Assembly: GCA_937883885.1 (NCBI GenBank)
Contig: CAKZXL010000815.1
Span: forward strand, 1-63,119
Direction: 5' to 3'
From: an uncultured Aquincola sp.
GTDB lineage: Bacteria > Pseudomonadota > Gammaproteobacteria > Burkholderiales > Burkholderiaceae
DNA: 63,119 bases
Below, piece after piece: positions 1 through 63,119 of the stretch. The translations under genes and the position numbers were made by a program. Under the pieces are notes generated by a model that was given only the letters and a program-made list of their open reading frames with translations, made no database searches and was not told the DNA's origin. Numbering within the stretch: the first letter of the stretch is position 1; each line of letters starts with the position of its first letter.

Positions 1-99
1 ACAGGAAAGTCAATGAAATCAACGGTCTACCCAGACCACCCCCGCGCCAGTGCTAGCTTTGCGTACCGTCACTTATTGCACTGAAAACGAGGAGACCCC
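1..99. mobile_element. IS1071: IS1071 inner terminal inverted repeat (left copy)
   Basis: Bases 11-99 match the reverse complement of 63031-63119 at 84 of 89 positions. The tip is GGAGACCCC at 91-99, and cargo starts at 100. From knowledge of the family, IS1071 is a Tn3-family element with unusually long inverted repeats of about 110 bp, whose outer end reads GGGGTCTCCTCGTTTTCAGT. That string is seen here in reverse complement. The body of the element, with its transposase, would lie to the left of the window. The five mismatches against the right-hand copy fit an IRL/IRR pair rather than two copies of the same end. Confidence 0.9.
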
Positions 100-619
100 G
101 ATCACCGGGTCGAGCGTGTTCTCCGGGGGGCTGGACCTGGGCAGCCGGCCCGTCCTGTACTTCGCCTCCCTGGGCGCCCTGGCGCTCGCCTCGCTCGGGT
201 TCGTGCGCATCAAGGGTTCGCGCTTCGGCTTGGTCCTGGCGGCCGCGAACCAGAGCGAGCAGCGCGTGGAGGCGTCGGGCTTCAGTGTCGATCGCTACCG
301 GCTGGCGGCTTTCGTGCTCGCCGCGGCGGTCTGCGGCTTGGCCGGGTTCCTGAACGCCAACCTCACCAGCTTCGTGACGCCCGACCTCACGAGCTGGAAG
401 CTGTCCGCGGCGCTCATGTTCATGGTCGTGCTCGGCGGCAGCGGGACGGCCTGCGGCCCGGTCCTGGGGGCGGCCGCGTTCGTGCTCATCGAGCAGCTGC
501 TGGGCAGCAAGACTGCCTACTGGGAGTTCTGGTTCGGAGCCTTCCTGATCGTCGCGGTGAGCGGCGGGCGCCGGGGGCTGGCCAGCCTGCTGCTGGGAAC
601 CAAGGGAGGTTCGGCATGA
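100..619 (+). pseudogene. livM: LivM-type ABC permease, 5' end deleted by IS1071
   Basis: About 173 codons remain of a branched-chain-amino-acid-type ABC permease, which is usually over 300 residues. Hydrophobic segments are clear, and the stretch VLGGSGTACGPVLGAA is the conserved permease loop that contacts the ATPase. The reading frame runs leftward without interruption into the IS1071 repeat, where a GTG at 50 could start a chimeric protein. The N-terminal half and the expected partner permease LivH are missing from the window. The stop overlaps the start of the ATPase gene (ATGA at 616), so this was the third-last gene of a liv-type operon. Confidence 0.85.
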
Positions 620-1374
620 GCGCCGCCGTCGCACCGGTGCTGGCCATGGACGGGCTGTTCAAGGCCTTCGGTGGCGTCGTCGCCACCCGGGACGTGTCGC
701 TGGACATCCGCAAGGGCGAGATCCATGCCCTGATCGGCCCCAACGGGGCGGGCAAGACGACGCTGATCAGCCAGCTGTTCGGGGCCCTGCGGCCGGACCG
801 CGGGCGCATCCTTCTTCACGATCAGGACATCACGGGCCTGTCTCCGGCGCAGCGGGCCCGCAGGGGCATCTCGCGGTCCTTCCAGATCACGGCGCTGGCC
901 CGGAGCATGTCCGTGCTGCAGAACGCCGTGCTGGCGATCCTGGCCCAGGACGGGCACGCCTTCAGCTTCTGGCGCTCGATCCAGCGCGACGCCCCGCTGC
1001 AAGCGCGCGCGCATGAACTGCTGCGCAGCGTGGGCATGCACGGCAGGGCAGGGGCGCTGGTCGAGAGCCTGAGTCATGGCGAGCAGCGCCTGCTCGAGTT
1101 CGCGCTGGCCATGGCCGGCGACCCCGCGATCGTGCTGCTCGACGAGCCCATGGCCGGGCTGGGGCACGAGGAAGGACTGGAGATGACCCAGCACTTGGCC
1201 CGCCTGAAAGGCAAGACCACCATCATCCTGGTGGAGCACGACATGGATGCGGTCTTCGGGCTGGCTGACCGGGTCACGGTCCTGGTGGGCGGCACGGTGC
1301 TGGCCACCGGCACGCCCGCGGAGATCCGCGCCAACCCGGATGTTCGCAACGCCTACCTGGGGGATGATCTATGA
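616..1374 (+). CDS. livG: ABC transporter ATPase, LivG type
   Basis: A 252-residue ATPase subunit that would power import of a branched-chain amino acid or aromatic acid through the inner membrane. Walker A is GPNGAGKTT near residue 42, the signature is LSHGEQR near 155 (His replaces the usual second Gly), and Walker B is IVLLDEP near 175. The C-terminal region (VEHDMDAVFGLADRVTVL) is typical of LivG. It overlaps livM and livF by four bases each. With the permeases truncated or absent, it is probably non-functional here unless it pairs with a permease encoded elsewhere. Confidence 0.9.
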   Translation: MSAAVAPVLAMDGLFKAFGGVVATRDVSLDIRKGEIHALIGPNGAGKTTLISQLFGALRPDRGRILLHDQDITGLSPAQRARRGISRSFQITALARSMSVLQNAVLAILAQDGHAFSFWRSIQRDAPLQARAHELLRSVGMHGRAGALVESLSHGEQRLLEFALAMAGDPAIVLLDEPMAGLGHEEGLEMTQHLARLKGKTTIILVEHDMDAVFGLADRVTVLVGGTVLATGTPAEIRANPDVRNAYLGDDL

Positions 1375-2075
1375 CGCTCAGCGTTCAACGTCTCTCGGGC
1401 GGCTACGGCGCCAACCGCGTGCTCTTCGACGTGGACCTGTCCATCGGAGAGGGCGAGGTGGTGTGCCTCATGGGCCGCAACGGCATGGGAAAGACGACCA
1501 CGGTGCACAGCATCCTGGGGCTGCTTCCGAAGAAGGGCGGGAACGTCACGTTCCAGGGCGTCGACATCACCGGCCTGGCGGCCGACCAGATCGCGCGGCT
1601 GGGCGTGGGCCTCGTGCCCGAGGGACGGCACATCTTTCCCAACCTGTCCCTGCACGAGAACCTCATGGCGACGGCGGCCAGCCGGACCGCGGGGGCCGCG
1701 CCATGGACTGTGGATCGCGTCTACGAGATCTTCCCGAAGCTGCACGAGCGCCGCCTTGCCGCCGGAAACTTGCTGTCGGGCGGTGAGCAGCAGATGCTGG
1801 CCATCGGACGCGCGCTGATGACGAATCCCCGCCTGCTCATCCTGGACGAAGCCACCGAAGGGCTGGCGCCCTTGATCCGGGAGCAGATCTGGCGGTGCCT
1901 GGCCGATCTGCGCCGCACGGGCCTGGCGATCCTCATCGTCGACAAGCACCTCAAGAAGCTCGTGCATCTGGCGGACCGCTTCTACGTCATGGAGCGCGGC
2001 CGCATCAAATGGACGGGGACCGCCAAGGACGTCGAGTCCGACCTGGAAAGGATCTCGGGGCTCATGGCCGTGTGA
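1371..2075 (+). CDS. livF: ABC transporter ATPase, LivF type
   Basis: A 234-residue second ATPase of the same importer. Walker A is GRNGMGKTT, the signature is LSGGEQQ and Walker B is LLILDEA. The stretch GLVPEGRHIFPNLSLHENL is characteristic of LivF. It is translationally coupled to livG through an ATGA overlap. Between its stop and the next gene lies a short CCCATC triple repeat (about 2094-2112). Confidence 0.9.
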   Translation: MTLSVQRLSGGYGANRVLFDVDLSIGEGEVVCLMGRNGMGKTTTVHSILGLLPKKGGNVTFQGVDITGLAADQIARLGVGLVPEGRHIFPNLSLHENLMATAASRTAGAAPWTVDRVYEIFPKLHERRLAAGNLLSGGEQQMLAIGRALMTNPRLLILDEATEGLAPLIREQIWRCLADLRRTGLAILIVDKHLKKLVHLADRFYVMERGRIKWTGTAKDVESDLERISGLMAV

Positions 2076-2144
2076 CCCGCGCCGTGGCGCCGGCCCATCC
2101 CCATCCCCATCCGCTTTGCTTGTTCCATCAAAGGAGACGATGAA

Positions 2145-3329
2145 ATGAAGATACTGGGCATTTTTCTGGCGCTGGCTGCCGCCATGGCCGCTCCGGCCGG
2201 CGCGCAGACGCCGCCGATCAAGATCGGGGTCGTGACGACGCTGACCGGCGGCGGCGCGGTCATCGGCCGGGACGTGGTCGATGCGGTCAACCTGGGGGTC
2301 GAGCACATCGGCGGCAGCATGGGTGGGCGCAAGGTCGAGATCGTCTACGAGGACGACGGGCTCAAGCCCGAGCTGGGGCGCCAGAAGACGCAGAAGCTGA
2401 TCCAGCAGGACGGCGTCGACGTGCTGGGCGGTTACATCTGGAGCAACGTGCTGCTGGCCTCGCGCAAGCCGATCGTCGATGCCGGCAAGGTCGTGGTCAG
2501 CGTCAATGCCGGCCCGTCGGACATCGCGGGCAAGCTGTGCTACGAGAACTTCATCGCGATGCACGCGCAGAACGACGTGCTGCCGATGGCGGTGGGCAAG
2601 CTCATGAACCTGCGCGGCGCCAAGAAGCTGTACTTCATGGCCCCGAACTACACCGCGGGCAAGGACTTCCTCCAGGCCGTGCGGCGCGTGTACACGGGCG
2701 AGGTGGTCGGTGCGGACATGACCCGGTGGGGCGACGATCCGCAGCTCGACTTTTCCGCGGAGCTGAGCAAGGTGAGGGCGTCCGGCGCCGATGCTTTGTT
2801 CGCCTTCTACCCGGGTGCCGCGGGCGCTGCCTTCGCGCGGCAGTTCGACCAGTCGGGCCTGGCCGGCAAGACCAAGCTCTTCACGGCCTTCACGCTGGAC
2901 CAGCTCAACCTGCCGAGCCTGCAGGCCGCGGGCGTGAAGGGCGTGCTTGGCTCGGAAACAGCCGACTTCTGGGCGGCGGACCTGGACAACGCCGAGAACA
3001 AGCGCTTCGTCAAGGAATTCAATGCCAAGTACGGCCGCCTGCCGTCGAACTACGCCGCGACGTCCTACGACATGGTCACGCAGCTGAAGGCCGCCGTGGA
3101 CGAACTGGGCGGCAACACCAAGGAAGCCGCGAAGCTGAGCGCGGCGCTGCGCAAGGCGGCCTACCGGTCCGTTCGCGGGGTCCAGTACCGGATCGGAAAG
3201 AACGGCTTCCCGGTCGACCGGTTCGTCGCGGTCGAAGTCGATGGAAGCGGACCCGTCTGGAGCCTCAAGTCCAAGGAGGTCGTGCTCGAGGGCACGGCCG
3301 ATCCGCACCTGGCGGCTTGTCCGCTGTAG
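2145..3329 (+). CDS. periplasmic substrate-binding protein, LivK/type-1 fold
   Basis: A 394-residue binding protein of the Peripla_BP_6 family. It begins with a Sec signal peptide (hydrophobic MKILGIFLALAAAMAAPAGA, cleavage near residue 21), then IKIGVVTTLTGG, the usual start of the mature LivK fold. It lies 69 bp after livF with a GGAGA ribosome site. Family members feed aromatic acids as well as amino acids to liv-type transporters. The dehydrogenases downstream suggest an aromatic or alcohol-related ligand, but the ligand cannot be read from the sequence. Confidence 0.87.
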   Translation: MKILGIFLALAAAMAAPAGAQTPPIKIGVVTTLTGGGAVIGRDVVDAVNLGVEHIGGSMGGRKVEIVYEDDGLKPELGRQKTQKLIQQDGVDVLGGYIWSNVLLASRKPIVDAGKVVVSVNAGPSDIAGKLCYENFIAMHAQNDVLPMAVGKLMNLRGAKKLYFMAPNYTAGKDFLQAVRRVYTGEVVGADMTRWGDDPQLDFSAELSKVRASGADALFAFYPGAAGAAFARQFDQSGLAGKTKLFTAFTLDQLNLPSLQAAGVKGVLGSETADFWAADLDNAENKRFVKEFNAKYGRLPSNYAATSYDMVTQLKAAVDELGGNTKEAAKLSAALRKAAYRSVRGVQYRIGKNGFPVDRFVAVEVDGSGPVWSLKSKEVVLEGTADPHLAACPL

Positions 3330-3433
3330 GCGAGAGGCGGCCGTGCCCGGTCGGGTGGCGCCGCCGCGCGGCGCGCCCCCGCAAGGGCCGCCCGTGTCCA
3401 CCCCGTTTGTTCAGAAAGAGGATCCGAGCCACC

Positions 3434-4948
3434 ATGTCGCAGTCAACTTCGCTGCCGAATCACGAGATGGGCGCCCGCAGCTACGGCCTGCACATTGCCG
3501 GCGAGGCCGTCGCGGCCGAGCCGGGACGTACCTTCGAGTCCTTCAACCCCACGACCGGGCGGCGCTGGGGCGACTTCGCCATCGCCGGCGCCGACCAGGT
3601 GGACCGGGCGGTGACGGCGGCCGCCAAGGCATTCCGCGGCCCCTGGTCCCGCATGTCCGCGACCGAGCGCGGCCGGCTGCTGATGCGCTGGGGCGACGCG
3701 ATCGCGGAGAACGCGATGCACATCGGCGCGCTCGAGGCGACGCAGAACGGCAAGCTGGCCTCGGAGATGCAGACCCAGGCGCGCATCGTGCGCGACTGGC
3801 TCTGCTACTTCGGCGGCATGGCCGACAAGATCGAGGGCGCGGTCATTCCGGTCGCGCAGACGTCGGTGCTCAACTACACGCTCAAGGAGCCCCTGGGCGT
3901 GGTGGCCGTCATCGTGCCCTGGAACTCTCCGACGCTGCTGATGATCGAGTCGGCCGCGCCCGCGCTCGCCGCGGGCAACACCATCGTCGTCAAGCCCAGC
4001 GAGGTGACGTCGGCCTCGGCGATCGAGATCGCCCGGCTGGCGGAAAGCGTCGGCATCCCCCCCGGCGTCCTCAACGTCGTGACGGGGCTGAGGGAAACCG
4101 GGGAGGCGCTCGTCGGACACCCGCAGGTCCGCAAGATCTCCTTCATCGGCAGCACGGACGTGGGACGGGCCATCGCCGCCGAGGCGGGCAGGAAGCTCGT
4201 CCCGTGCACGCTCGAGCTGGGCGGCAAGAGCCCGAACATCGTCTTCGAGGACGCCGACATCGACCGCGCGGAAATCGGGGTGCTGGCCGGGATCTTCGCG
4301 GCGGCGGGCCAGACCTGCGTGGCGGGCTCGCGCGCCTACATCCACCGCCGCATCTACGACGAACTGGTCTCCCGCCTGGTGCGGCGGGCGGGCCGGATCG
4401 CGGTCGGCGACCCGCTGGCGCAGGCCACCCAGATGGGGCCCGTCGCGAGCAAGGCCCAGCTGGACAAGGACCAGGCCATCGTGCGCGAGGCCGTGGCCGC
4501 AGGGGCCAGCGTGCTCTGCGGGGGCGAACGCCTGGCGGTGCCAGGCTTCGACGGCGGCTACTTCTTCGCGCCCACGATCCTGGGCGGGGCGGATGCGGCC
4601 AATCCGGTGATCTGCAAGGAGGTCTTCGGGCCGGTCCTCGCGGTCATGCCCTTCGAAGACGACGACGAGGTCCTCGCCCTGGCCAACGATTCGGAGTTCG
4701 GGCTGGCCGCGGGGGTGTGGACCAAGGACTTCCGGCGCGCGCACCTGATGGCGCGGCGGCTCGAGGCGGGAACGGTCTGGCTCAACACCTACCGCACGCT
4801 GGCCTTCAATTCGCCCTTCGGCGGCTACAAGTCCAGCGGAATCGGGCGCGTCAACGGCACCGAGGCCGTGAACCACTACCTGCAGACCAAGAGCGTCTGG
4901 TGCGAGCTCGGCGACGAGGTGCGCGACCCGTTCGCCTTCAAGGCCTAG
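3434..4948 (+). CDS. NAD(P)-dependent aldehyde dehydrogenase
   Basis: 504 residues, the normal length for the ALDH superfamily. The Rossmann region includes VIVPWNSPTLL and FIGSTDVGR. The general-base Glu is in LELGGKSPN and the catalytic Cys in GQTCVAGS. The C-terminal FGGYKSSGIGR is standard. ATG at 3434 was chosen because it gives the normal N-terminus and follows a GAGGAT-rich leader. It sits between the transporter and an alcohol dehydrogenase, so the pair probably takes an alcohol to its acid. The substrate is unknown. Confidence 0.88.
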   Translation: MSQSTSLPNHEMGARSYGLHIAGEAVAAEPGRTFESFNPTTGRRWGDFAIAGADQVDRAVTAAAKAFRGPWSRMSATERGRLLMRWGDAIAENAMHIGALEATQNGKLASEMQTQARIVRDWLCYFGGMADKIEGAVIPVAQTSVLNYTLKEPLGVVAVIVPWNSPTLLMIESAAPALAAGNTIVVKPSEVTSASAIEIARLAESVGIPPGVLNVVTGLRETGEALVGHPQVRKISFIGSTDVGRAIAAEAGRKLVPCTLELGGKSPNIVFEDADIDRAEIGVLAGIFAAAGQTCVAGSRAYIHRRIYDELVSRLVRRAGRIAVGDPLAQATQMGPVASKAQLDKDQAIVREAVAAGASVLCGGERLAVPGFDGGYFFAPTILGGADAANPVICKEVFGPVLAVMPFEDDDEVLALANDSEFGLAAGVWTKDFRRAHLMARRLEAGTVWLNTYRTLAFNSPFGGYKSSGIGRVNGTEAVNHYLQTKSVWCELGDEVRDPFAFKA

Positions 4949-4995
4949 GCACCCTCCCGGCCGCACAGCCACAGATCCATCGCATAGGAGCCACG

Positions 4996-6051
4996 ATGAG
5001 AGGTGTCGTATTTCCCGGGAACCGCAAGATCGAGTACCTCGAGGTGCCGGACCCGACGCCCGGGCCGCTGGACGTCGTCATCGAGATGAAGGCGTCCGGC
5101 ATGTGCGGCACCGACCTGCAGAACTACCGCAGGCCGCTGGACCAGCCTGCCTACATGCCATCGCTGATCGGCCGCCCGCCCATCGCCGGCCACGAGCCCG
5201 CGGGCATCGTCTGCGCGGTCGGTTCGGCCGTGCCGGCGCAGCTCGCGCGGGTCGGGCAGCGGGTCATGGTGCACCACTACCAGGGCTGCAACGCCTGCGC
5301 GCACTGCCGCACCGGCTGGCAGCAGCTGTGCCGCAACGTCCAGCCGATGGTGCGCGTGTACGGCAACAACGACGACGGCGGCCACGCGCCCTACCTGAAG
5401 GTGCCGGCGAACACCGTGGTCACGCTGCCGGATTCGCTGAGCTTCGAGGCCGGCGCGGCGATCGCCTGCGGAACCGGCACCGCCTACCAGGCGCTGCGGC
5501 GCATGCACCTGTCCGCGGCAGACACCATCGCCATCTTCGGGCAGGGGCCCGTCGGCCTGTCGGCCACGCAGTTCGCGCGGGCCATGAATGCGCGCGTCAT
5601 CGCCATCGACACGAACGAGCAGCGGCTCGAGCACGCACGCCGACTGGGCGCCGACGTGGCCTTCGCCCCGTCGGGCGACGGCGATGTCGCAGAAGCCATC
5701 CTGGAGCTGACCGGCGGGCAGGGCGTCGACAAGTCGCTGGAGACCTCGGGGGCGGCATCCGCGCGCAGCGCGGCCATCCGTGCGGCCAAGACCTGGGGGA
5801 CCTGCTGCTTCGTCGGCGAGGGCGGCGAGGTGCGCATCAACGTCAGTCCGGAGCTGCTGCGCCGCCAGATGACGGTCATGGGGTCGTGGACGTTCTCGAC
5901 GACCGGCCAGGCCGAGTGCGCCGCCTTCGTCGCCGCCAAGGGGCTCGACGTCGGCCAGCTGTACACCCACCGCTGGACGCTGGACCGGGCCGAGGAGGCC
6001 TACCGGCTGTTCGACCAGGGCGTGGGCGGCAAGGGCGTGTTCCTGCTCTGA
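4996..6051 (+). CDS. zinc-dependent alcohol dehydrogenase (MDR family)
   Basis: 351 residues. The catalytic zinc site is suggested by CGTD (near residue 36) and GHE. The structural zinc Cys cluster is GCNACAHCRTGWQQLC. The nucleotide-binding motif is GQGPVGLSA. This is the threonine-dehydrogenase/sorbitol-dehydrogenase-like branch of the MDR family. It starts 47 bp after the aldehyde dehydrogenase and shares its strand, so the two probably act in sequence (alcohol to aldehyde to acid). Confidence 0.87.
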   Translation: MRGVVFPGNRKIEYLEVPDPTPGPLDVVIEMKASGMCGTDLQNYRRPLDQPAYMPSLIGRPPIAGHEPAGIVCAVGSAVPAQLARVGQRVMVHHYQGCNACAHCRTGWQQLCRNVQPMVRVYGNNDDGGHAPYLKVPANTVVTLPDSLSFEAGAAIACGTGTAYQALRRMHLSAADTIAIFGQGPVGLSATQFARAMNARVIAIDTNEQRLEHARRLGADVAFAPSGDGDVAEAILELTGGQGVDKSLETSGAASARSAAIRAAKTWGTCCFVGEGGEVRINVSPELLRRQMTVMGSWTFSTTGQAECAAFVAAKGLDVGQLYTHRWTLDRAEEAYRLFDQGVGGKGVFLL

Positions 6052-6091
6052 TGGCGGCGGGGCGCCGGTACCGGGGGCGTATGCGGGCCAC

Positions 6092-6108
6092 GGCCCGGCG
6101 CACGGGCC
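6092..6108. terminator. GC hairpin between convergent genes
   Basis: The arms GGCCCG and CGGGCC are separated by five bases. It lies between the stop of the alcohol dehydrogenase and the stop of nadC, which run towards each other. There is no T tract, so intrinsic termination is uncertain. Confidence 0.3.
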
Positions 6109-6151
6109 CGTCCGGTCGCCGGCATGCGCGCCGACGCGACGCGGTCCCGGC

Positions 6152-7015
6152 TCAGGCCTCCAGCGGCCGCTCGCTGAAGCGCATCGAGAAGTCGACGGCC
6201 GTCACGTCCTTGATCAGCGCGCCCACGGAGATGCGGTCGACGCCGGTCTCCGCGTAGGCCCGCAGCGTCTCGAAGGTGACGCCGCCGGAGACCTCCAGGC
6301 TGCAGCGGCCCTGGGCCAGCCGCACCGCTTCACGGACGGTCTCCAGGGGCATGTTGTCCAGCAGCACCATGTCCACGCCCGCGTCGAGCGCTTCCTGCAA
6401 CTGCCGCAGCGTCTCGACCTCCACCTGGATGAAGGCCACGCGGCCCTTGAGCGCCTGCGCCGCGCGGAACGCGGCCGTCAGGCCGCCCGCTGCCGCGATG
6501 TGGTTCTCCTTGATCAGGACGGCGTCGTACAGGCCCATCCGGTGGTTCTGGCCGCCGCCGCAGCGCACGGCGTACTTTTGCGCGGCGCGCAGGCCGGGGA
6601 TGGTCTTGCGCGTATCTAGGACGGCCGCGCGCGTGCCTTCGACCACCTTGACATAGCGGGCGGTCTTGGTCGCCACGCCGCTGAGCGTCTGCAGGAAATT
6701 CAGGCAGGTGCGCTCCGCGGTGAGGAGCTCGCGCGCCACGCCTTCGATCACCACGACGGCCTGCCCGGGCACGCAGGTGCCGCCATCGGGTACGCGCCAG
6801 TCGGCCCGCGCCGTCGGCGCCAGGCGGTGCAGTATCTCCTCGACCCAGGGCCGGCCGCAGACGACCGCCGCCTGGCGGCACGTGATGGTGGCCGTGGCGC
6901 GGGCGGTCGCCGGGACCAGTTCCGCGGTCAGGTCTCCCGGGCCGACATCCTCGTCCAAGGCACGCTCGACGTCCTGGTGCACCTGCTTCAGAAACTCTCT
7001 CTCACTCACGTTCAA
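6152..7015 (-). CDS. nadC: nicotinate-nucleotide diphosphorylase (quinolinate phosphoribosyltransferase)
   Basis: 287 residues, the usual NadC length. It joins quinolinate and PRPP with decarboxylation to give nicotinate mononucleotide in NAD synthesis. Diagnostic motifs are VLDTRKTIPGLR, KYAVRCGGGQNHRMGL, LIKENHI and LEVSGGV. The start used is a TTG at 7015; the leader has AAGGA very close to it, so the exact start is uncertain. A housekeeping NAD gene is unusual in a catabolic transposon. It stands alone on its strand, with two palindrome-like sites upstream (7241-7332). Confidence 0.9.
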   Translation of the reverse strand: MNVSEREFLKQVHQDVERALDEDVGPGDLTAELVPATARATATITCRQAAVVCGRPWVEEILHRLAPTARADWRVPDGGTCVPGQAVVVIEGVARELLTAERTCLNFLQTLSGVATKTARYVKVVEGTRAAVLDTRKTIPGLRAAQKYAVRCGGGQNHRMGLYDAVLIKENHIAAAGGLTAAFRAAQALKGRVAFIQVEVETLRQLQEALDAGVDMVLLDNMPLETVREAVRLAQGRCSLEVSGGVTFETLRAYAETGVDRISVGALIKDVTAVDFSMRFSERPLEA

Positions 7016-7240
7016 TCCTTTTTGTTCATCCTGGGGAGGCCGCGTCCCGGCGCGGCCGTGCCGCCTGTGCTTGCGTGGGCCGGCGGAGCGCCAGCCACCG
7101 GGGCCACCGGCGCCGGAGCATGGCTTGCGGCCTCACCTCGCTCATGCGCGCGACTGGAGGAGACGTTTGCCCGTCGGCCGAACCGGTGCGCACGCACGCA
7201 CACGCACCGCCATGCGTACACATCGAGTCCGAGTTTACAA

Positions 7241-7332
7241 AATTATTAGAGACCGCATGATTCTAGGGAAACCCCGTAGGGAAAACCGTTGCCCGGATCA
7301 ACGTGTGCCCCTAAAATCATTAGGCGACTAAC
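7241..7332. promoter_or_regulatory. operator-like sites between nadC and hemerythrin
   Basis: The 356 bp between nadC and the hemerythrin gene contain no other gene. At 7319-7332 is ATTAGGCGACTAAC, a TTAG-NNNN-CTAA palindrome 40 bp before the hemerythrin start. At 7244-7257 a second sequence, ATTAGAGACCGCAT, shares its first ten bases with the palindrome at 18270. Similar sites precede other units on this element. By analogy with MarR-family operators I infer repressor binding; no binding data can be seen. Confidence 0.5.
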
Positions 7333-7371
7333 AAAACGGGGCACCGCCAGACGGTGCCCGCATTCCCCGCC

Positions 7372-7833
7372 ATGAACCCCACTGAAACCTCGGCGCCGAT
7401 CTGGTCAGACTCGCTACTGCTCGGGCATGCGGCGATCGATGGCGAGCACGAGCAACTGGCCGAGCTGATCGAGCGCATGCGGTGCGCCGCCGCGCCCGAG
7501 ATGGCGCAGGCGCTGGACGCGGTGCTCCAGCATGCGGCCTCGCACTTCGCGGCCGAGAACGAGTTGATGCGCACGACGGCGTTTCCGCCGCGCGACTGCC
7601 ACATCAGCGAGCACGAAGCGGTGCTGTCCACGCTGCGCGGCGTGCGTGCCCGCCTGGCGCGCGGGGAGGTCGAGGTGGCCCGCCGCGTGGCGGACGAGCT
7701 GGCGGCCTGGTTTCCGCCCCACGTCCAGCACCTCGACTCGGCACTCACCCATTGGCTCTGCAAGCTGCAGCACGGCGCCAAGCCCGTGGTGCTGCGCGTG
7801 GGCCGAAAGCCCGAGGCCGCCCTGGCCTGCTAG
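7372..7833 (+). CDS. bacteriohemerythrin (hemerythrin-like oxygen-binding protein)
   Basis: 153 residues. The diiron ligands are visible in order: H19-x3-D23-x2-H26, then HFAAE (H-x3-E), then CHISEH (H-x3-H), then HVQHLD near the C-terminus. This is the complete four-helix hemerythrin pattern. ATG at 7372 was preferred to 7354 because it starts directly at the conserved N-terminal segment. It ends 44 bp before the phthalate dioxygenase gene on the same strand, so an oxygen-supply or oxygen-sensing role for that enzyme is plausible but inferred. Confidence 0.85.
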   Translation: MNPTETSAPIWSDSLLLGHAAIDGEHEQLAELIERMRCAAAPEMAQALDAVLQHAASHFAAENELMRTTAFPPRDCHISEHEAVLSTLRGVRARLARGEVEVARRVADELAAWFPPHVQHLDSALTHWLCKLQHGAKPVVLRVGRKPEAALAC

Positions 7834-7877
7834 TTCAACCCCCCTGAAGCAACCACCACTAGAGATGAGATGACATC

Positions 7878-9197: not shown

Positions 9198-9201
9198 TCC
9201 C

Positions 9202-10191: not shown

Positions 10192-10223
10192 TCCCGCACC
10201 ACCCACAACTGGAGACACCCACC

Positions 10224-11201: not shown

Positions 11202-11210
11202 TCGCGCGTC

Positions 11211-53347: not shown

Positions 53348-53439
53348 GGGGTCTCATCCTTTCTCGTTTGGTTGGGGAAATGATCACCGGCACGCTCATC
53401 ATTGTCTAATCGATATTGGAGAGAAATAGAATTCAGGAT
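53348..53439. promoter_or_regulatory. divergent promoter region, monooxygenase operon and LysR gene
   Basis: 92 bp, noticeably AT-richer than its surroundings. The segment TCTAATCGATATTGGAGA (53404-53421) has partial dyad symmetry and resembles the recurring TAATCGA-containing sites. This is the expected place for LysR binding and for both promoters. Confidence 0.45.
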
Positions 53440-55285: not shown

Positions 55286-55331
55286 CCGGAGGGAACCTCC
55301 TCGCCCACGCCCGCCGCGGCCGAGGGCTGCC

Positions 55332-56633
55332 TTACCGCGGAAGGTGCTGGCCCATGTACTTCGCGCGCGGCCGCAGCATGGCGCCCGTCAGGCGCTGCTC
55401 CATCGCGTGGGCGATCCACCCGCTGGTGCGCGCCAGGGTATGCAGCATCGCGCCGCTGCCATTGGGCAGACCCATCGCCTTGCACAGGATCACGAGGGCG
55501 GCGAAGACGTTCGGGTGCTGTCCCGCCTGCCGCGCGCCGGTCACCAGCGCCTGCACCTTCGGCAGATCCGGTCCGTGCGCGCTGAGGTCGTCTACGAGCT
55601 CGAGCAGCACGGCCGAGCGCGGGTCCTCCCCATCGTAGAGGGGATGGCCGAAGCACGGCAGCTCATTGCCCTTGAAACCCGAGGCCGCCGCCAGCGGCAG
55701 GGCGTCTTCGGGCGCCAGGCCGCAGGGCAGGGCGTCGATGAGCGCCTCGACCTCCACGGCGCCCCCGACCTGCATCGGCCCGGACTGGGTCAGCATCGCC
55801 GTGGCGACGCAGGCGTGCAGGTCCGCGCCCGTCGAGGCGCAGATCCGCGCCGCGAAGGTCGGTGCCGACAGCTCGTGTTCGGCGGACATCACGAGCGCGG
55901 CGTCGATGGCCCGCACGGCATCGGGCCGATCGCCCAGGCCCAGCCCGCGGGCGACGCACTGCGCCACGAACTCGCCGTCGCGGGGCGGGGAGAAGCGCGG
56001 CTCGGGGCCGAAGACGCCAGCCGGGCCCGCCAGCCACTGCAGCAGGCGGCGGCAGGCCGCGAAACCGGCCGCCTCCACGTCGTCCTCGGCCCGCTCGAAC
56101 GCGGACAGCGAGGTCGTCAGCATCGCCAGGAGCTTGAGCGGCGTGACGTGCTCGGCCGATTGCAGCGCCATGCGGACCAGCGACTCAGGCTGCCGGGTGT
56201 CCTGCGGGGCCGGCCACGGGACATCGCGGGTGCGCGGCAGCCCCGTCCAGATGAGCTCGCTCGCGAACTCGAACGACCGTCCGTCACGCACCAGGTCGCG
56301 CGCGAGCACCCCCCGGTAGCGTGGGCCCTGGGCGGTGAGCTCGCTGATCCACGTCTGCGCGATCGGCTCGCCGTAGCGCAGCGACTGGGAGACCTGCGGC
56401 CCGCCCGCGCGGGCGACGGCCCGGCTCCTGAGCTTCTCGACGTCGGCCTTGCGGTAAAGCTTGGCCTTCACGCCCGGGCGCTGCTTGGTCTTGATGAGGC
56501 CGCGGCTCACGTAGGTGTACAGCGTCTCGCGGCGCACGCCGAGGATCGACATCGCTTCCGCGCTCCCGACGTATTCGACGTCATTGATCTGGCGGCGCTG
56601 GCGTGCGTTCTCGGAGCTGTTCTTGGCTGGCAT
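55332..56633 (-). CDS. HTH domain fused to citrate-synthase-like domain (copy 2)
   Basis: 433 residues. Residues about 22-66 form the DNA-binding domain (AMSILGVRRETLYTYVSRG, then a KAKLYRKADVEKL wing). The rest follows the citrate-synthase fold. The second catalytic His is kept (CFGHPLYDGEDPRS). The first is Gln (GPMQVGGA), and the Asp region reads NVFAAL instead of NVDF. So two of three catalytic residues are lost. ATG at 56633 follows AGGA and was preferred to one 11 codons upstream. It is divergent from a Rieske oxygenase operon, the classic layout of a local regulator. A sensor role is inferred. Confidence 0.78.
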   Translation of the reverse strand: MPAKNSSENARQRRQINDVEYVGSAEAMSILGVRRETLYTYVSRGLIKTKQRPGVKAKLYRKADVEKLRSRAVARAGGPQVSQSLRYGEPIAQTWISELTAQGPRYRGVLARDLVRDGRSFEFASELIWTGLPRTRDVPWPAPQDTRQPESLVRMALQSAEHVTPLKLLAMLTTSLSAFERAEDDVEAAGFAACRRLLQWLAGPAGVFGPEPRFSPPRDGEFVAQCVARGLGLGDRPDAVRAIDAALVMSAEHELSAPTFAARICASTGADLHACVATAMLTQSGPMQVGGAVEVEALIDALPCGLAPEDALPLAAASGFKGNELPCFGHPLYDGEDPRSAVLLELVDDLSAHGPDLPKVQALVTGARQAGQHPNVFAALVILCKAMGLPNGSGAMLHTLARTSGWIAHAMEQRLTGAMLRPRAKYMGQHLPR

Positions 56634-56744
56634 AGGGTTCCTACGGCTATTTATATCGATTCTCACATCGATCTATACATAGATCAATGTATTGCCTAGT
56701 ATTCGTTACGTTTACTCAACGAATCTTTTGAAAGGACGACCACG
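56634..56744. promoter_or_regulatory. repeat-rich divergent promoter region
   Basis: 111 bp, strongly AT-rich in a GC-rich element. From 56655 to 56690 three 12-base units follow each other (ATCGATTCTCAC, ATCGATCTATAC, ATAGATCAATGT). Within them GATCTAT-AC-ATAGATC (56670-56685) is a perfect 16-bp palindrome. This is a strong candidate binding site for the adjacent HTH/citrate-synthase-like protein. Confidence 0.6.
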
Positions 56745-57887
56745 ATGCAAGTAGCCGAACACCAACTCCTGGACCTGCGCCCCAAGTTCAAGGAGACCCG
56801 CAAGAAACTGCTCAGCGCCCGGCACCTGCCGGGCGAGGTGTACAGCTCGCCCGAGATCTACGCCATGGAGAAGGAGCAGATCTTCATGAAGTACTGGCTC
56901 TCCGTGGGACGCGTCGAGGAGATTCCCGATGTCGGCGACTACTACACCTTCCAGGTGATGAAGGAGTCGATCGTGGTGTCCCGTCCCGCGCCCGACCAGG
57001 TCGTCGCCTACATGAACCAGTGCCTGCACCGCGGCGTGGAGATCGCCGTCGGCCGCGGCAACGCCAAGGAATTCAGCTGCCCGTACCACGCTTGGCTCTA
57101 CGACGTGAGCGGCAAGCTCGTCGTCGCGCCGGGCATGAAGGCCTCGGAGGTCGAGCTGAAGAACTGCAGCCTGCGCCAGCTTCACGTCAAGGTCTGGCGC
57201 GGCTGGATCTTCGTGAACTTCAGCGACGAGCCGATGTCTTTCGACGACTACATCGCTCCCTTCGAGCAGCCGCTGTGGTGGTTCCAGACCGACCATTGCA
57301 AGCTCGCCCAGAAGGTCGAGATCGACGTCAAGTGCAACTGGAAGTTCCTGGTCGAGAACCTGATCGACATCTACCACGTCGGCGTCATCCACAAGGGGAC
57401 CTTCGGCGGCTTCGTGAAGGGCGAGCAGGTCCGCTTCAACCTGGTCGAGAACGGCGGCTGGCACACCCAGTACGAAGCCAGGCCGCACTCGAAGTCCGGC
57501 GAGCAGGTCTTCCCGACGCTGCCCTGGGCGCAGGACAAGCCCAGCGGGATCGCCTGCAAGGCGGGCATCTATCCGAACCTGAACCTGTCGATGCGTGCCG
57601 ACAGCGTGCGCATGTGGCACATCTGGCCCATCTCTCCCACGGAGACCAAGGTCATCTGCTATCTGCTGTTCCCTGAAGGCGCCTTCTCGATCCCGAACTA
57701 TGACGAGGAGATGGAGAAGTACGTGGGTTTCGTGCGCCAGATCATCGCCGAGGACGCCGTGATGGTGGAGGGCATGCAGAACACCGCGGGGTCGAAGTTC
57801 TTCCAGCCCGGCCCGATGTCGCCGCTCGAGGAGGCGCTGTATCACATGGAGAACCACTACATCGACGTGATGACGTCGCAGGCGTAG
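56745..57887 (+). CDS. Rieske non-haem iron oxygenase, alpha subunit
   Basis: 380 residues. Rieske ligands C93-x-H95 and C112-x2-H115; mononuclear iron ligands D208-x2-H211-x4-H216 (LIDIYHVGVIH). No beta-subunit gene follows, so an alpha-only oligomer is likely. It is followed by its own ferredoxin and ferredoxin reductase. Substrate unknown: monooxygenation, demethylation or dihydroxylation of an aromatic acid are all possible. Confidence 0.87.
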   Translation: MQVAEHQLLDLRPKFKETRKKLLSARHLPGEVYSSPEIYAMEKEQIFMKYWLSVGRVEEIPDVGDYYTFQVMKESIVVSRPAPDQVVAYMNQCLHRGVEIAVGRGNAKEFSCPYHAWLYDVSGKLVVAPGMKASEVELKNCSLRQLHVKVWRGWIFVNFSDEPMSFDDYIAPFEQPLWWFQTDHCKLAQKVEIDVKCNWKFLVENLIDIYHVGVIHKGTFGGFVKGEQVRFNLVENGGWHTQYEARPHSKSGEQVFPTLPWAQDKPSGIACKAGIYPNLNLSMRADSVRMWHIWPISPTETKVICYLLFPEGAFSIPNYDEEMEKYVGFVRQIIAEDAVMVEGMQNTAGSKFFQPGPMSPLEEALYHMENHYIDVMTSQA

Positions 57888-57925
57888 GGCAGCGGGTGCG
57901 GCAAGACAACAATCCGGGAGACACC

Positions 57926-58246
57926 ATGGACGGTGAATGGATCAGGGTCGGCAACGTGGCCGACATCGACGAAGACGACACGCACCCGGTCGAGATCGAC
58001 GGCAGGCGGGTGTGCCTCTACAACCTCGGCGGCGAGATCTTCGCCACGGACGGCACCTGCACCCACGGCGACGCGGACCTTTCGCTGGGCATGGTGGTCG
58101 ATTCCTGCCTCATCGAGTGCCCCCTGCACGAGGGCACCTTCGACATCCGAAGCGGCCGGGCGGTGGGCGCGCCGTGCACGGATCCGCTGCGCTGCCATCC
58201 GGTCAAGGTCGAGCAGGGAGTCATCTTCCTGCGGCCCGCGCACTGA
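57926..58246 (+). CDS. Rieske-type ferredoxin
   Basis: 106 residues. Cluster ligands C45-x-H47 and C65-x2-H68 (GTCTHG, CPLHEG). It carries electrons from the reductase to the oxygenase. ATG at 57926 with a GGGAG site was preferred to an in-frame GTG ten codons upstream. It is 38 bp after the oxygenase gene. Confidence 0.92.
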   Translation: MDGEWIRVGNVADIDEDDTHPVEIDGRRVCLYNLGGEIFATDGTCTHGDADLSLGMVVDSCLIECPLHEGTFDIRSGRAVGAPCTDPLRCHPVKVEQGVIFLRPAH

Positions 58247-58265
58247 ACGACGGCAGGGAGCACCC

Positions 58266-59468
58266 ATGGATGTCGTCATCATTGGAGCCGGCCAGGCCGG
58301 CGCCTGGGTCGCCCGGTCGCTGCGCGAAGCGGGACATGAAGGGGGCATCACGCTCCTGGGGCGCGAGCCGCACGCGCCCTACGAGCGGCCCCCCTTGTCG
58401 AAGGCGGTGCTCAGCGGGGCGGAAGAGCACCCGCCGGTGCTGCTCGGCCCGCAGCAGTGCGACGCGCTGCGCGTGGACTTCCGGCCCGGCGTCGAGGCCG
58501 TCGGCATCGATCGCACCGGCCACCAGGTCAGCTGCGCGGATGGCTCTGCGGTCCGCTACGACAAGCTCGTGCTGGCCACCGGAGGGCGACCTCGGGCGCT
58601 GTCGTGTCCCGGCGCCGACCTGCCCGGCGTCCATGCGCTGCGCACGATCGAGGATTGCCAGGCCATCGCCAGGAAGCTGGTGCCGGGCAACCGGCTGCTG
58701 ATCGTGGGCGGCGGGTGGATCGGGCTGGAGATCGCCGCGACGGCGAGGAAGAAACAGGTCGAGGTCATGGTGCTGGAGGCGGGGCCGCGCCTGTGCGCGC
58801 GGTCGCTGCCGCCCCGGTTCTCGGCGTTCCTGCTCGACAGGCACCGCCGGGAAGGCGTCGACGTCCGGCTGGCGACGACGGTCGCGTCGATCGAAGCGGG
58901 CCGCCAGCGCGCGCTGGCCGTGGAACTGCCTGGCGGGCCGCAGGAGTTCGACGCGGTGGTGGTCGGGATCGGGCTTGCGCTCGACACCGGGCTGGCCGAG
59001 GCCTGCGGGCTCGAGGTCCGGGACGGCATCGTCGTGGACCAGGCCGGCCGCACCTCCGACCCAGACATCTATGCCGCGGGCGACGTGGCCAACCAGCCGA
59101 ACACCTGGGCGGGCGGCCGTCTGCGATGCGAGTCGTGGGCCAATGCCCAGAATCAGGCCATCGCCGTGGGCAAGGCCATTGCCGGCGGCGAGGTGGCGTA
59201 CGACGAGATTCCGTGGTTCTGGTCGGATCAGTACGACCTGAACCTGCAGGTGCTCGGCGTGCCGTCGAACGAGCTCGAGGGCACCCTGCGCGGCTCCGCC
59301 GAGGAGGGGGCGTTCTCCGTGTTCCAGATCTCTGAGGGCAGGCTGCGCAGCGTGCTGTCGGTGAACGTGCCGCGCGACATCAAGGTGGCCAAGCGCTGGC
59401 TCAAGCAGGGGACCTGCCCGCCGCCGGAGGTCCTCGCCGACCGCACGGTCCGCCTGGACAAGCTCTGA
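58266..59468 (+). CDS. FAD-dependent ferredoxin reductase
   Basis: 400 residues of the BphA4/putidaredoxin-reductase family. FAD motif VVIIGAGQAGAWVARSL, NAD motif LLIVGGGWIGLEIA, and the late FAD motif DIYAAGDVA, then WFWSDQYDLNLQVLG, which is typical of the family. It reduces the ferredoxin with NAD(P)H. It is 19 bp after the ferredoxin gene and ends the operon. Confidence 0.92.
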   Translation: MDVVIIGAGQAGAWVARSLREAGHEGGITLLGREPHAPYERPPLSKAVLSGAEEHPPVLLGPQQCDALRVDFRPGVEAVGIDRTGHQVSCADGSAVRYDKLVLATGGRPRALSCPGADLPGVHALRTIEDCQAIARKLVPGNRLLIVGGGWIGLEIAATARKKQVEVMVLEAGPRLCARSLPPRFSAFLLDRHRREGVDVRLATTVASIEAGRQRALAVELPGGPQEFDAVVVGIGLALDTGLAEACGLEVRDGIVVDQAGRTSDPDIYAAGDVANQPNTWAGGRLRCESWANAQNQAIAVGKAIAGGEVAYDEIPWFWSDQYDLNLQVLGVPSNELEGTLRGSAEEGAFSVFQISEGRLRSVLSVNVPRDIKVAKRWLKQGTCPPPEVLADRTVRLDKL

Positions 59469-59561
59469 GCGGGCTGCTCGCGGGGCGGCCCGGTGCCGCT
59501 GCCGCCTGCAGCCCGGCCACTGGGCGCGTGCGCAGGAGGGATCGGCGCGGGAGCGCCGACG

Positions 59562-60266
59562 CTATTCGACCCGCAGCTGCGCGGCGACCATCGCGCTCAG
59601 GCTGTTCGCGAACTCATCCACGCTGATCTTCTCGGCCCGGTACTTCCAGCGCTTGACGTACCAGTCCTGGATGACGCTCTGCAGGTGCGCCGCCAGCAGG
59701 AAGGCTTCCCGGTCGCCCATCTCGCGCACCTGCCGGATCTGCCGCGCCATGGCGGCCTGGAAATCCACCTCGGCGGCCCTGGCCACCTTGCGCTGATCAG
59801 CCTCGAGCACGCGCGACTCCATGTACACGAAATAGAACCACGGCTGCAGCAGCTCGGACATGAAGACGTGCGCCCGCAGGCTGCTGTCCAGACGCACCAG
59901 CGGCGCCAGAGACGCCTCGTCGAACCAGCGAGGGATCTCGCCGCCGATGTGCCGGATCAGGTCCTCGACCATGGCGGCCAGGGCGTCCTTGCTCTGCAGG
60001 TAGCCGTAGAGCCCGCCCATGGACAGGCCGGTGGCCTTGGACAGGTCCCGCAGCGTCATCGCGCCGAAGCCCACCTGGTTGGCCAGCTGGAAGGAGGCCT
60101 CGAAGATGGCCCGCAGATTGGCCAGCGCCACCGGCACGCGCTTGACCGTGATGGCGTGCGCGTTGCGCGCGTACACCAGCTCCCACAGCGTGTCGGGCGG
60201 GATGGGGTTGATCCGCTTGAACTGTGCGAAGGTGAATCGGGGCTCGAGACCGAGGGACAGGGGCAT
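59562..60266 (-). CDS. TetR-family transcriptional regulator
   Basis: 234 residues. Unlike most TetR proteins, the helix-turn-helix (TLRDLSKATGLSMGGLYGYLQSKDAL) is preceded by about 45 extra residues; a downstream start is possible. The C-terminal domain is of the acyl-CoA-responsive size. It is divergent from the acyl-CoA dehydrogenase gene across an exact palindrome and probably represses that operon. Confidence 0.87.
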   Translation of the reverse strand: MPLSLGLEPRFTFAQFKRINPIPPDTLWELVYARNAHAITVKRVPVALANLRAIFEASFQLANQVGFGAMTLRDLSKATGLSMGGLYGYLQSKDALAAMVEDLIRHIGGEIPRWFDEASLAPLVRLDSSLRAHVFMSELLQPWFYFVYMESRVLEADQRKVARAAEVDFQAAMARQIRQVREMGDREAFLLAAHLQSVIQDWYVKRWKYRAEKISVDEFANSLSAMVAAQLRVE

Positions 60267-60356
60267 GGCGGGAAGGCGTGGACGCGGTCGGGTGGGGGGC
60301 GGGGCAGGTTGCCCGAATTGACCGCCGGTCGGGAATGATTGTAAACTCCCTCAAAA

Positions 60357-60374
60357 ACCGAGCGAGCGCTCGGT
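60357..60374. promoter_or_regulatory. 18-bp TetR-type operator
   Basis: ACCGAGCG-AG-CGCTCGGT, with perfect eight-base arms. It lies 26 bp before the acyl-CoA dehydrogenase start and 90 bp from the TetR start. Sites of this sequence class are common for TetR regulators of fatty-acid-type operons. Confidence 0.75.
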
Positions 60375-60400
60375 GTTTATTTCGAGCGAGACAACCCCAC

Positions 60401-62200
60401 ATGGCCACTGCCACCATCAGCGAGCGCGAGCTCGCCTTCCTGCTTTACGAAGTCCTGGACACCGCGGGCCTGCTGCGGCGCGAGCGCTATGCCGAGCACT
60501 CGCGCGAGGTCTTCGACGCCACGCTGGAGACGGCGCGCCAGCTGGCCGAGGATTTGCTGGCGCCGCATCTGCGCGAGGGCGACGAGAACGAGCCACAGTT
60601 CGAGAATGGCCGGGCCCGCCTCGTCGCGCCGACCCGCGCGGCGTGGCAGGCCATCGCGGATGCCGGGTTCCTCAGTGCGCACTGGGAGCAGGCCGAGGGC
60701 GGGCTGCAGCTGCCGGAGGTCGTGCTGCGCGCGGCGATGAGCGCCTTCTACGCGGCCAACGTCGGCACGGCGGCCTATGCGATGCTGACGATCGGCGCGG
60801 CCAATCTGCTGCGCACCTTCGGCAGCCCACAGCTCCGGGCCCGCTACCTCGCGCCGCTGGGCGACGGCCGCTTCGCCGGCACGATGGCATTGACCGAGCC
60901 GTCGCAGGGTTCCGCCCTGGGCGACATCAAGACCTACGCCGTGCCCCAGGCCGATGGGAGCTACCGCGTTTTCGGCCAGAAGATGTTCATCTCCGGCGGC
61001 GAGCAGGACCTCACCGAGAACATCGTGCACATGGTGCTCGCGCGCATCCAGGGCGCGCCGCCCGGCGTCAAGGGCATCTCGCTGTTCCTGGTGCCCAAGA
61101 TCCTGCCCGGCGAGCACGGGGCGGCGGACACGCCGAACGACGTGGCGCTGGCCGGGCTGCTGCACAAGATGGGCTGGCGCAACACCACCTCCACCGTGCT
61201 GTCCTTCGGGGAGAAGGGCGGCGCGGTGGGCTGGCTGGTCGGCCGCGAGCACCAGGGCCTGGCCCACATGTTCCAGCTGATGAACGAGGCGCGCATCGGC
61301 GTCGGCGTCATGTCCGCCAGCATCGCCTGGCGCGGCTTCAGCGAGTCGCTGGCCTACGCGCGCGAGCGGCCGCAGGGCCGCCTGCCGTCGAACAAGGATC
61401 CGCTGTCGCCGCAGGTCAAGCTGGTCGAGCACTCCGACGTGCGCCGGATGCTGCTGGTGCAGAAGGCCTACGCCGAGGGCAGCCTGGCCCTGTGCCTGTA
61501 CGCCTGCAGCCTGTTCGAGGACCAGCACACCCATCCGGAGCCGCCGGCGCGCGCAGCGGCCGGCCGGCTGCTCGACGTCCTCACGCCGGTCGTGAAGTCC
61601 TGGCCTGCGCGCTACGGCGCGGCGGCCAACGACCTGGCCATTCAGGTGCTCGGCGGCGCGGGCTACACGCGCGACTACCCGCTGGAGCAGCTGTACCGCG
61701 ACCAGCGCCTGAACATGATCCACGAGGGGACCGAGGCCATCCACGGCATCGATCTGCTCGGCCGCAAGGTGCTGGCGGAGCAGGGCGCGGGGCTGCGCCT
61801 GTTCGTCGACACCGTGCGCCAGGACGCCGGGCGCGCCTCCGAGGCGGGCCTGGGCGACGAGGCGGCGGCCCTGTGCGCGGCGCTGGACCGCCTGGTGGAG
61901 GTCAGCGCGGGGCTCGCCGCGCTGCAGCGCAGCGAGCCCGACCTCGGCCTGGCCAACGCCACGCTGTACCTCGACGCGTTCGGGCGCGTGACGCTGGCCT
62001 GGATCTGGCTGCTGCAGGGGCGGGCGGCGGCGCGCGCGCTGCCGGCCGCCAGCGGGGAGGCCGCCGACCACTACCGCGGCAAGCTGCAGGCCATGCGCTA
62101 CTTCTTCCAGTGGGAGCTGCCGCAGACGCACGCCCAGTGGGCGTTGCTCGCGCGTGCCGACCGCTGCGCCTACGACATGCGCGACGCGTGGTTCATCTGA
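60401..62200 (+). CDS. acyl-CoA dehydrogenase (large, DmdC-like group)
   Basis: 599 residues, about 200 longer than medium-chain enzymes, with an extra C-terminal domain. FAD/acyl-CoA motifs: TEPSQGSALGD, KMFISGGEQDLTENIVHMVL (typical of the DmdC-like group), and the catalytic-Glu segment NMIHEGTEAIHGIDLLGRK. It inserts the 2,3-double bond in an acyl-CoA, passing electrons to ETF. ATG at 60401 follows the TetR site. It forms an operon with the truncated thiolase. Confidence 0.9.
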   Translation: MATATISERELAFLLYEVLDTAGLLRRERYAEHSREVFDATLETARQLAEDLLAPHLREGDENEPQFENGRARLVAPTRAAWQAIADAGFLSAHWEQAEGGLQLPEVVLRAAMSAFYAANVGTAAYAMLTIGAANLLRTFGSPQLRARYLAPLGDGRFAGTMALTEPSQGSALGDIKTYAVPQADGSYRVFGQKMFISGGEQDLTENIVHMVLARIQGAPPGVKGISLFLVPKILPGEHGAADTPNDVALAGLLHKMGWRNTTSTVLSFGEKGGAVGWLVGREHQGLAHMFQLMNEARIGVGVMSASIAWRGFSESLAYARERPQGRLPSNKDPLSPQVKLVEHSDVRRMLLVQKAYAEGSLALCLYACSLFEDQHTHPEPPARAAAGRLLDVLTPVVKSWPARYGAAANDLAIQVLGGAGYTRDYPLEQLYRDQRLNMIHEGTEAIHGIDLLGRKVLAEQGAGLRLFVDTVRQDAGRASEAGLGDEAAALCAALDRLVEVSAGLAALQRSEPDLGLANATLYLDAFGRVTLAWIWLLQGRAAARALPAASGEAADHYRGKLQAMRYFFQWELPQTHAQWALLARADRCAYDMRDAWFI

Positions 62201-62241
62201 AGCCGCGACGCATTCCCTTTCCATCTCCACCGCAGGACCTT

Positions 62242-63030
62242 ATGAGCCAGGCCGTCATCGTTTCCGTCGCGCGCACCCCCATCGGGCGCGCCTACAAAGG
62301 GGCATTCAATGCCATCAAGTCGCCCACGCTGCTGGGCCATGCCATCGGGCACGCCGTCGCGCGCGCCGGCGCCGGCCCGGACGAGGTCGACGACGTCGTC
62401 GTGGGCACGGTGCTGGGCGCCGGCACGGCCGGCATGAACCTGGCGCGCAACGCCGCGCTCGCGGCCGGGCTGGGCGTGGCGGTGAGCGGCCAGACCCTGG
62501 ACCGCCAGTGCGCTTCCGGGCTCATGGCGGTGGCGACGGCCGCCAAGCAGATCATCGTGGACGGCATGCGGGTCGTGGTCGCGGGCGGCCAGGAAAACAT
62601 CTCCGCGGTGCAGAAGGGCTACTTCGACTGGGCCTCGGCGGAGGCGGACCCCGCCGTCCAGGCCAAGGTGCCGCACGCCTACATGCCCATGCTGCAGACG
62701 GCGGAGTTCGTCGCCAGGAAGTACGGGATCGGCCGCGAGGCGCAGGACCTGTACGCGCTGCAATCGCAGCAGCGCACGGCGGCGGCCCAGCAGGCTGGAC
62801 GCTTCGACGCCGAGATCGTGCCCCTGCCGTCGCGCATGGCCGTGGTCGACAAGGAGACCCAGGCCGTCAGCCACCGCGACGTGACCCTGGCCCAGGACGA
62901 GGGCAACCGCCCGGAGACCACGCTCGAGAGCCTGGCCGCGCTCAAGCCCGTGATCGAGGGCGGCAGCGTCACGGCGGGCAATGCCAGCCAGCTCTCCGAT
63001 GGCGCCGCCGCCTGCGTGCTGATGGACGAT
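62242..63030 (+). pseudogene. acetyl-CoA acyltransferase (thiolase), 3' end deleted by IS1071
   Basis: 263 codons of a thiolase that normally has about 390. The nucleophile C90 (LDRQCASGL) is present, but the C-terminal third with the GHP His and second Cys is lost. The frame continues into the IS1071 repeat for eight codons (GVSSFSVQ) and stops at 63057. The product cannot be active. It is 41 bp after the acyl-CoA dehydrogenase gene. Confidence 0.9.
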
Positions 63031-63119
63031 GGGGTCTCCTCGTTTTCAGTGCAATAAGTGACGGTACGAAAAGCTAGCACTGGCGCGGAGGTGGTGTTGG
63101 TAGATCGTTGATTTCATTG
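63031..63119. mobile_element. IS1071: IS1071 inner terminal inverted repeat (right copy)
   Basis: It begins GGGGTCTCCTCGTTTTCAGT at 63031 and continues to the window end. It is the inverted partner of 11-99 with five mismatches. The element body would lie to the right. It supplies the stop codon of the truncated thiolase. Confidence 0.9.

Follow-up and report, generated by a model that had tools for sequence, protein, structure and literature searches.

Positions 1 to 63,119 of contig CAKZXL010000815.1, from an uncultured Aquincola sp. (GenBank assembly GCA_937883885.1), were analysed as one stretch of 63,119 nucleotides, hereafter the window. It carries genes of aromatic catabolism and ends on both sides in tips of the insertion sequence IS1071. 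IS1071 is often found with genes for the breakdown of man-made chemicals, and a cargo lying between two copies is commonly interpreted as a composite transposon. The question raised by this locus is what moves: a transposon unit, as an earlier note made from the sequence had proposed, or a replicon on which the edges of the catabolic block are re-cut. A mobile island re-cut by IS1071 is more likely than one 63-kb composite transposon. In the history that we consider probable, the aromatic-catabolism island is the older structure, part of it being known with no IS1071 at the edges; it is now moved from host to host, and IS1071 and other Tn3-type elements re-cut it. Three hosts allow a comparison of near-identical cargo: between them the frame shifts while the cargo is nearly unchanged.

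The IS1071 tips at the window edges

Both edges of the window match the terminal inverted repeat (IR) of canonical IS1071, a Tn3-family element, and the window stops short of the full repeat. The start-proximal and stop-proximal ends of IS1071 differ at IR positions 39, 59, 66, 68 and 75. Against the reference copy in WDL1 (L065), window 99 to 1, read on the reverse strand, equals the first 99 bp of the start-proximal end with 0 mismatches (5 against the other end). Window 63031-63119 likewise equals the first 89 bp of the stop-proximal end with 0 mismatches (5 against the other end). The features at the edges are the following.

1..99, minus strand: IS1071 tip of the tnpA-start-proximal type, outermost IS base at 99; 99/99 identity to the intact IS1071 of Variovorax WDL1
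100..619, plus strand: livM/urtC-type ABC permease, its 5' part lost at the IS1071 tip (NCBIfam TIGR03408, profile 165-312 of 313, 82 bits)
100..63030, unstranded: cargo between both IS1071 tips, with no inner IS1071 tip in a scan tolerating 5 substitutions
62242..63030, plus strand: acetyl-CoA acyltransferase (thiolase), its 3' part lost at the IS1071 tip (NF005494, profile 1-264 of 392, 295 bits)
63031..63119, plus strand: IS1071 tip of the tnpA-stop-proximal type, outermost IS base at 63031; 89/89 identity to the intact WDL1 copy

The earlier note had described one inverted repeat at both edges, with five differences between its copies, and neighbouring genes cut at the repeat tips. Both observations are borne out: the repeats are IS1071 tips that differ at the five IR positions, and the profile matches of the permease and the thiolase are both partial. 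The length that it gave, 89 bp, is right for the right tip and needs a minor correction to 99 bp for the left one. The permease open reading frame (116-619) scores under the cut-off of the UrtC model, so only the kind of protein can be named.

Because the two edges carry opposite end types, both flanking IS1071 copies would read leftwards, that is in direct orientation, if they are canonical. The earlier note had argued the same from the five differences, and the argument stands on that condition. The underlying rule was assessed on copies counted as intact at 3150-3260 bp, of which 14 came from five plasmid records, four of these fetched only in part. This limit left out one 3.4-kb copy (pBPS33-2) and one shorter copy (Piscinibacter plasmid); also excluded were a copy in p1-T1 whose end is broken and an incomplete WDL1 copy. 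The five positions tell the start end from the stop end in 13 of the 14 accepted copies. In an IS1071-like isoform of p1-T1 (109136-112339; L206 9136-12339) both ends show the same mixed pattern, so end typing fails.

A direct pair spanning close to 60 kb is not unusual for IS1071. Of nine neighbouring pairs counted in the plasmid records, seven are direct. Two of the pairs pass over a further copy: one lies in pBPS33-2, and the other is a 60.7-kb pair in p1-T1 that also involves the ambiguous isoform. The seven remaining pairs comprise six direct and one inverted, spaced 1.5 to 57.5 kb apart; replication and partition genes lie within the 57.5-kb span, a direct pair in the Piscinibacter plasmid. 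Ten draft contigs with IS1071 at both ends divide into seven direct and three inverted. With 7/10 contigs and 7/9 plasmid pairs direct and spacings this large, neither the orientation nor the size of the window's frame is distinctive.

Most probably the window represents an entire draft contig, which ends at IS1071 tips because assemblers halt at a repeated element. In G000, a draft genome of 7.11 Mb in 94 contigs, 12 contig ends break off after 49-51 bp of IS1071, and the assembly contains no body of the element. Contigs of Acidovorax sp. NB1, assembled from Illumina MiSeq data with Platanus (PMC6696639), likewise end in IS1071, mostly 176-177 bp deep, and some IS1071 body fragments are present. 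In a Curvibacter metagenome-assembled genome (MAG; G003), contig ends lie about 83-98 bp into the element. Draft contigs halt at repeated IS1071 whatever lies beyond, so of the exact 63-kb frame that the earlier note had emphasised, the tips at both edges are real and the exactness is an ordinary short-read assembly effect.

The same block in other hosts

Two genomes carry much of the window nearly unchanged, and a plasmid carries a diverged form.

2949..46790, unstranded: part present in contig C37 of G000, 43,836/43,842 identical, bounded by IS1071 tips that agree with the window's in type and sense; the right edge is ambiguous by a few G
2879..56488, unstranded: part present in contig C4 of Acidovorax sp. 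NB1, minus an IS91-like insert, bounded on both sides by Tn3-type ends with similar terminal repeats
4944..60636, unstranded: part present, with gaps, in Acidovorax carolinensis plasmid pACP3.2 at about 91-94% identity, with no IS1071 at the edges

The G000 contig (43,941 bp) is the reverse complement of its part of the window and departs from it at 6 of 43,842 bp. For window 101-2948 and for 46791-63030, 40 candidate stretches of G000 were scored, and none was near-identical. As the window extends past both ends of this contig, G000 in its present form is a close relative and cannot be the assembly from which the window comes. The NB1 block shows 16 differences from the window in about 51.2 kb (13, one of them a 1-bp gap, in 45,326 bp and 3 in 5,854 bp), and NB1 has only matches of about 67-70% to window 101-2878 and 56489-63030.

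The left block edge of NB1 adjoins 1,261 bp with integrase, helix-turn-helix (HTH) and RelE-type genes, identical to the DNA that bounds the other island end in pACP3.2, followed by an IS1071 tip. At the right block edge stands a similar terminal repeat, together with the beginning of a transposase gene of the DUF4158 (Tn3-type) kind. A single element flanking the NB1 block was considered and dropped, as the right piece has the DUF4158 domain; this piece gave no DNA match to the compared parts of pACP3.2 and p1-T1. The Tn3-type ends beside the block thus appear to be two ends with similar repeats. In NB1 and pACP3.2, Tn3-type ends with similar terminal repeats (starting GGGGTGATC) meet the island at three separate points (L069 178-1438, L188 1-1163 and L063 near 9435), one side with the integrase, HTH and RelE-type genes and another with the DUF4158 transposase start.

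The end points of the block therefore lie at 100-63030 in the window, 2949-46790 in G000 and 2879-56488 in NB1, and differ at both sides. The same end points in other locations or hosts, which would speak for movement as a unit, were found in neither G000 nor NB1. Since the end points differ across near-identical carriers, the frame is not conserved between hosts. Of the earlier note's classical composite transposon of 63 kb, the orientation argument survives, and movement as a unit finds no support in these two carriers. Besides IS1071 tips, nothing near-identical was found in plasmids (compared with window 1-25000 and 40000-63119) or in viral contigs (compared with the right junction only).

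The cargo itself has travelled. The rpoB loci (gene and flanks) of G000 and NB1 are 86.2% identical and the block about 99.97%, which argues for horizontal transfer and suggests that the block moved recently between hosts, probably of different genera. Window 101-9000 was matched in 31/399 family genomes, G000 included, with one or two candidate stretches scored per genome, so that weaker or further matches may be missing; 30 of the 31 matches cover only about 0.8-1.1 kb at 71-85%. Five genomes from the genus of G000, scored in the same way, gave no match to this region at E up to 1e-150.

Base changes were polarised against two outgroups, pACP3.2 and Xenophilus azovorans. Of the six differences between G000 and the window, five are unique to the window and one is unique to G000. 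At site 38117, for which there are no Xenophilus data, the window and G000 are alike against NB1 and pACP3.2, and the window groups weakly with G000. Because the window has the outer DNA without a scar, the shorter frame of G000 cannot be the parent of the window's longer frame.

Short gaps and the IS91-type insert aside, pACP3.2 holds its whole span of the window, and the IS1071 seen in this plasmid lies about 19 kb from the island, 100-130 kb of the plasmid being outside the reading. In Xenophilus azovorans, window 6140-44716 is colinear, with gaps, at 90-93%, and 50696-59468 is inverted at 79-88%. An IS1071 search of that genome found no tip and one 74-bp match at 80%. These diverged, largely colinear relatives with no IS1071 at their edges indicate that the island is older than its IS1071 frame.

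Movement of the island and of its frame

Not one of the 14 accepted IS1071 copies is flanked by a 5-bp duplication, which makes the 5-bp target duplication, proposed as a check in the earlier note, a weak test. When stop-end flanks were matched with start-end flanks in eight sets (162 pairs), two matches were obtained, with about 0.16 expected by chance. The first, G000 contig C65 with C56, looks like a plain insertion. The second is in p1-T1, where GAGGC outward of the stop end of one copy pairs with the flank at the start end of the next, inverted copy, the signature of IS1071 replicative inversion. These two inverted p1-T1 copies (L204 40499-48437) lie 1.5 kb apart and have matching inverted 5-mers. 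The C37 tips have no duplication partner among the 12 tips of G000, and the window's two tips are likewise without a partner, their inner 5-mers being GATCA outward on the left and ATCGT outward on the right. Intramolecular replicative transposition of Tn3-family elements deletes or inverts adjacent DNA, and the flank pattern fits such a process. According to PMC7039861, IS1071 transposition has been reported to begin with cointegration; in the open-access literature searched, no relevant paper on IS1071 with adjacent or intramolecular deletion was found.

A conserved frame would have been recognisable in these data. Contigs NB1 C15 (L273) and G003 C524 (L274) have both IS1071 junctions in common around 16,706 bp of cargo at 99.99%, with 2 mismatches in the whole alignment of 16,897 bp. 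This 16.7-kb unit, found in an Acidovorax isolate and a Curvibacter MAG, carries glnS, mercuric reductase and other genes, and at least 80% of it recurs, as adjoining pieces at a single place, in five plasmid records (Achromobacter, Comamonas, Comamonadaceae). It keeps both junctions across hosts; the 63-kb block shows no such conserved frame.

The entity that moves would be an aromatic-catabolism island with phthalate-type oxygenase, protocatechuate 4,5-cleavage and homogentisate genes, spreading horizontally and mainly with its carrier replicon. Adjacent IS1071 would change the block edges repeatedly: by transposing replicatively within the molecule, it would delete or invert the DNA next to it. 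Two direct copies could, in addition, recombine by homology and so release or reinsert cargo. The IS1071 frame would then be a transient product of each host lineage and not the boundary of one defined 63-kb transposon. A stronger version can be offered only tentatively: the three near-identical copies may form a natural deletion series of one IS1071-linked island that spread recently across genera and is being trimmed and given new frames as IS1071, and other Tn3-type elements, transpose replicatively within the molecule; large-cargo IS1071 "composite transposons" may mostly be by-products of adjacent deletion, not moving units.

The best surviving alternative, a classical 63-kb IS1071 composite transposon in which two direct intact copies move the whole 100-63030 segment as a unit, is unlikely. 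The end types at the window edges fit its direct orientation. The cargo names seen included no obvious replication or transfer gene, though no search aimed at them was made. IS1071-flanked catabolic clusters have been labelled putative composite transposons in print (PMC7039861). However, neither close carrier has the 100-63030 unit, direct orientation is common among IS1071 pairs anyway, and the window leaves the outer flanks, hence any outer duplication, out of view.

Independent IS1071 insertions at different island sites in separate lineages, with the rest then lost and no adjacent deletion driven by IS1071, are a distinctly improbable explanation. The five window-private base changes are absent from G000, so its frame need not derive from that of the window; but simple insertion alone leaves unexplained why nothing near-identical to the outer parts was found in G000 or NB1, and the lack of a duplication partner for the C37 tips also counts against it. 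Very improbable is a circular molecule holding just one IS1071 copy, whose two ends would form the contig ends with the whole circle between them: this arrangement predicts one start-type and one stop-type end facing inwards, as in the window, but the inner 5-mers are not the duplication pair expected from simple insertion (yet 0/14 copies elsewhere have one), no replication gene stood out in the same unaimed reading of cargo names, and the permease and the thiolase are of different kinds, so not halves of one gene.

Several points weigh against the island re-cut by IS1071. The window holds only tips, the IS1071 bodies and outer flanks lying outside it, and absence from draft genomes may reflect unassembled DNA. 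Independent IS1071 insertions, in place of deletions, could give differing end points. That the tips are oriented alike in the window and C37 agrees with either reading, having a chance of 1 in 4. The NB1 block itself meets other Tn3-type ends and not IS1071, and the p1-T1 inversion is proof of what IS1071 can do, not of its occurrence at this block. Finally, just three near-identical carriers have come to light in this comparison, and in each the carrier replicon is presumed. Whether a transposon unit moves, or a replicon with re-cut edges, becomes testable with long reads.

Cargo genes and known systems

A codon-based script called 57 genes, 40 of which were compared with NCBIfam (the last set at E up to 1e-30); other cargo genes were named, where at all, through the annotation of pACP3.2. 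The main groups are listed below.

7878..13363, plus strand: Rieske oxygenase, two solute-binding proteins, PDR/VanB-type reductase and Gfo/Idh/MocA dehydrogenase, named from matching plasmid genes, with weak NCBIfam hits only
34357..40273, minus strand: protocatechuate 4,5-cleavage cluster of dehydrogenase, ligB, ligA, amidohydrolase, DUF1932 protein, ligK and amidohydrolase (TIGR02792, PRK13366 and TIGR02798 over cut-off; pACP3.2 annotation)
44259..46831, minus strand: fahA and hmgA of the homogentisate pathway (TIGR01266 and TIGR01015, both over cut-off)
48203..50635, plus strand: IS91-family insertion with a tyrosine-recombinase gene at 48316-49062 (PF00589/PF13495) and an IS91-type transposase gene at 49226-50365 (NF033538, E 1e-105)
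56745..59468, plus strand: ring-hydroxylating dioxygenase alpha subunit, ferredoxin and ferredoxin reductase (hits under cut-off; pACP3.2 annotation)

NCBIfam hits over cut-off include hmgA, fahA, ligA, a ligB-type subunit, ligK, nadC and the IS91 transposase. The first group may represent a phthalate-type upper pathway, as its synteny suggests. The several complete pathways that the earlier note had seen are plausible for protocatechuate 4,5-cleavage; the homogentisate pathway is represented by hmgA and fahA only, and the phthalate-type step depends on synteny.

The 2.4-kb insert at 48203..50635 encodes an IS91-type transposase with a zinc-binding domain (NF033538, 353.7 bits against a cut-off of 125; PF04986, PF14319). 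IS91 elements insert without target duplication beside a fixed short motif. The insert is absent from NB1 and pACP3.2, and the empty site in NB1 reveals integration at G|TT without target duplication. Its 5' end is TTGGACGAAGCCGCT and its 3' end GTCCAAC ... ATCG. Related DNA was found in 7/399 genomes of the order, with one or two candidates scored per genome. Among the 3' ends read, the window's included, GTT follows in 6/7 and GAT in 1/7; a G directly precedes each of the six relatives' 5' ends read. A gene cassette was also considered. Linking the insert's end to its start gives a stretch of 55 bases that folds into an attC-like hairpin (z about -5), though the right end as it occurs in the window does not fold better than shuffled sequence (z -1.07). 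The cassette was rejected because the relatives keep the same ends around the integrase and the IS91-type transposase, which makes an IS91-type element the better reading of the insert.

Three known systems resemble the block in part. The island of pACP3.2/pACP4.2 is largely colinear with window 4944-60636 (about 91-94% in pACP3.2), but its edges are without IS1071, and its acyl-CoA dehydrogenase end adjoins the end of a Tn3-type element. The 16.7-kb unit of NB1 C15 and the Curvibacter MAG C524 shares the direct orientation and the draft contigs that end in IS1071 tips; unlike the block studied here, its two junctions are common to both hosts. PromA-type plasmids such as pBPS33-2 also have catabolic genes bounded by IS1071, with an IS91-type element within one such segment, and the five accepted intact IS1071 copies of pBPS33-2 all point in one direction. 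They differ in scale, the one IS1071-flanked segment for which a size was read measuring 19 kb.

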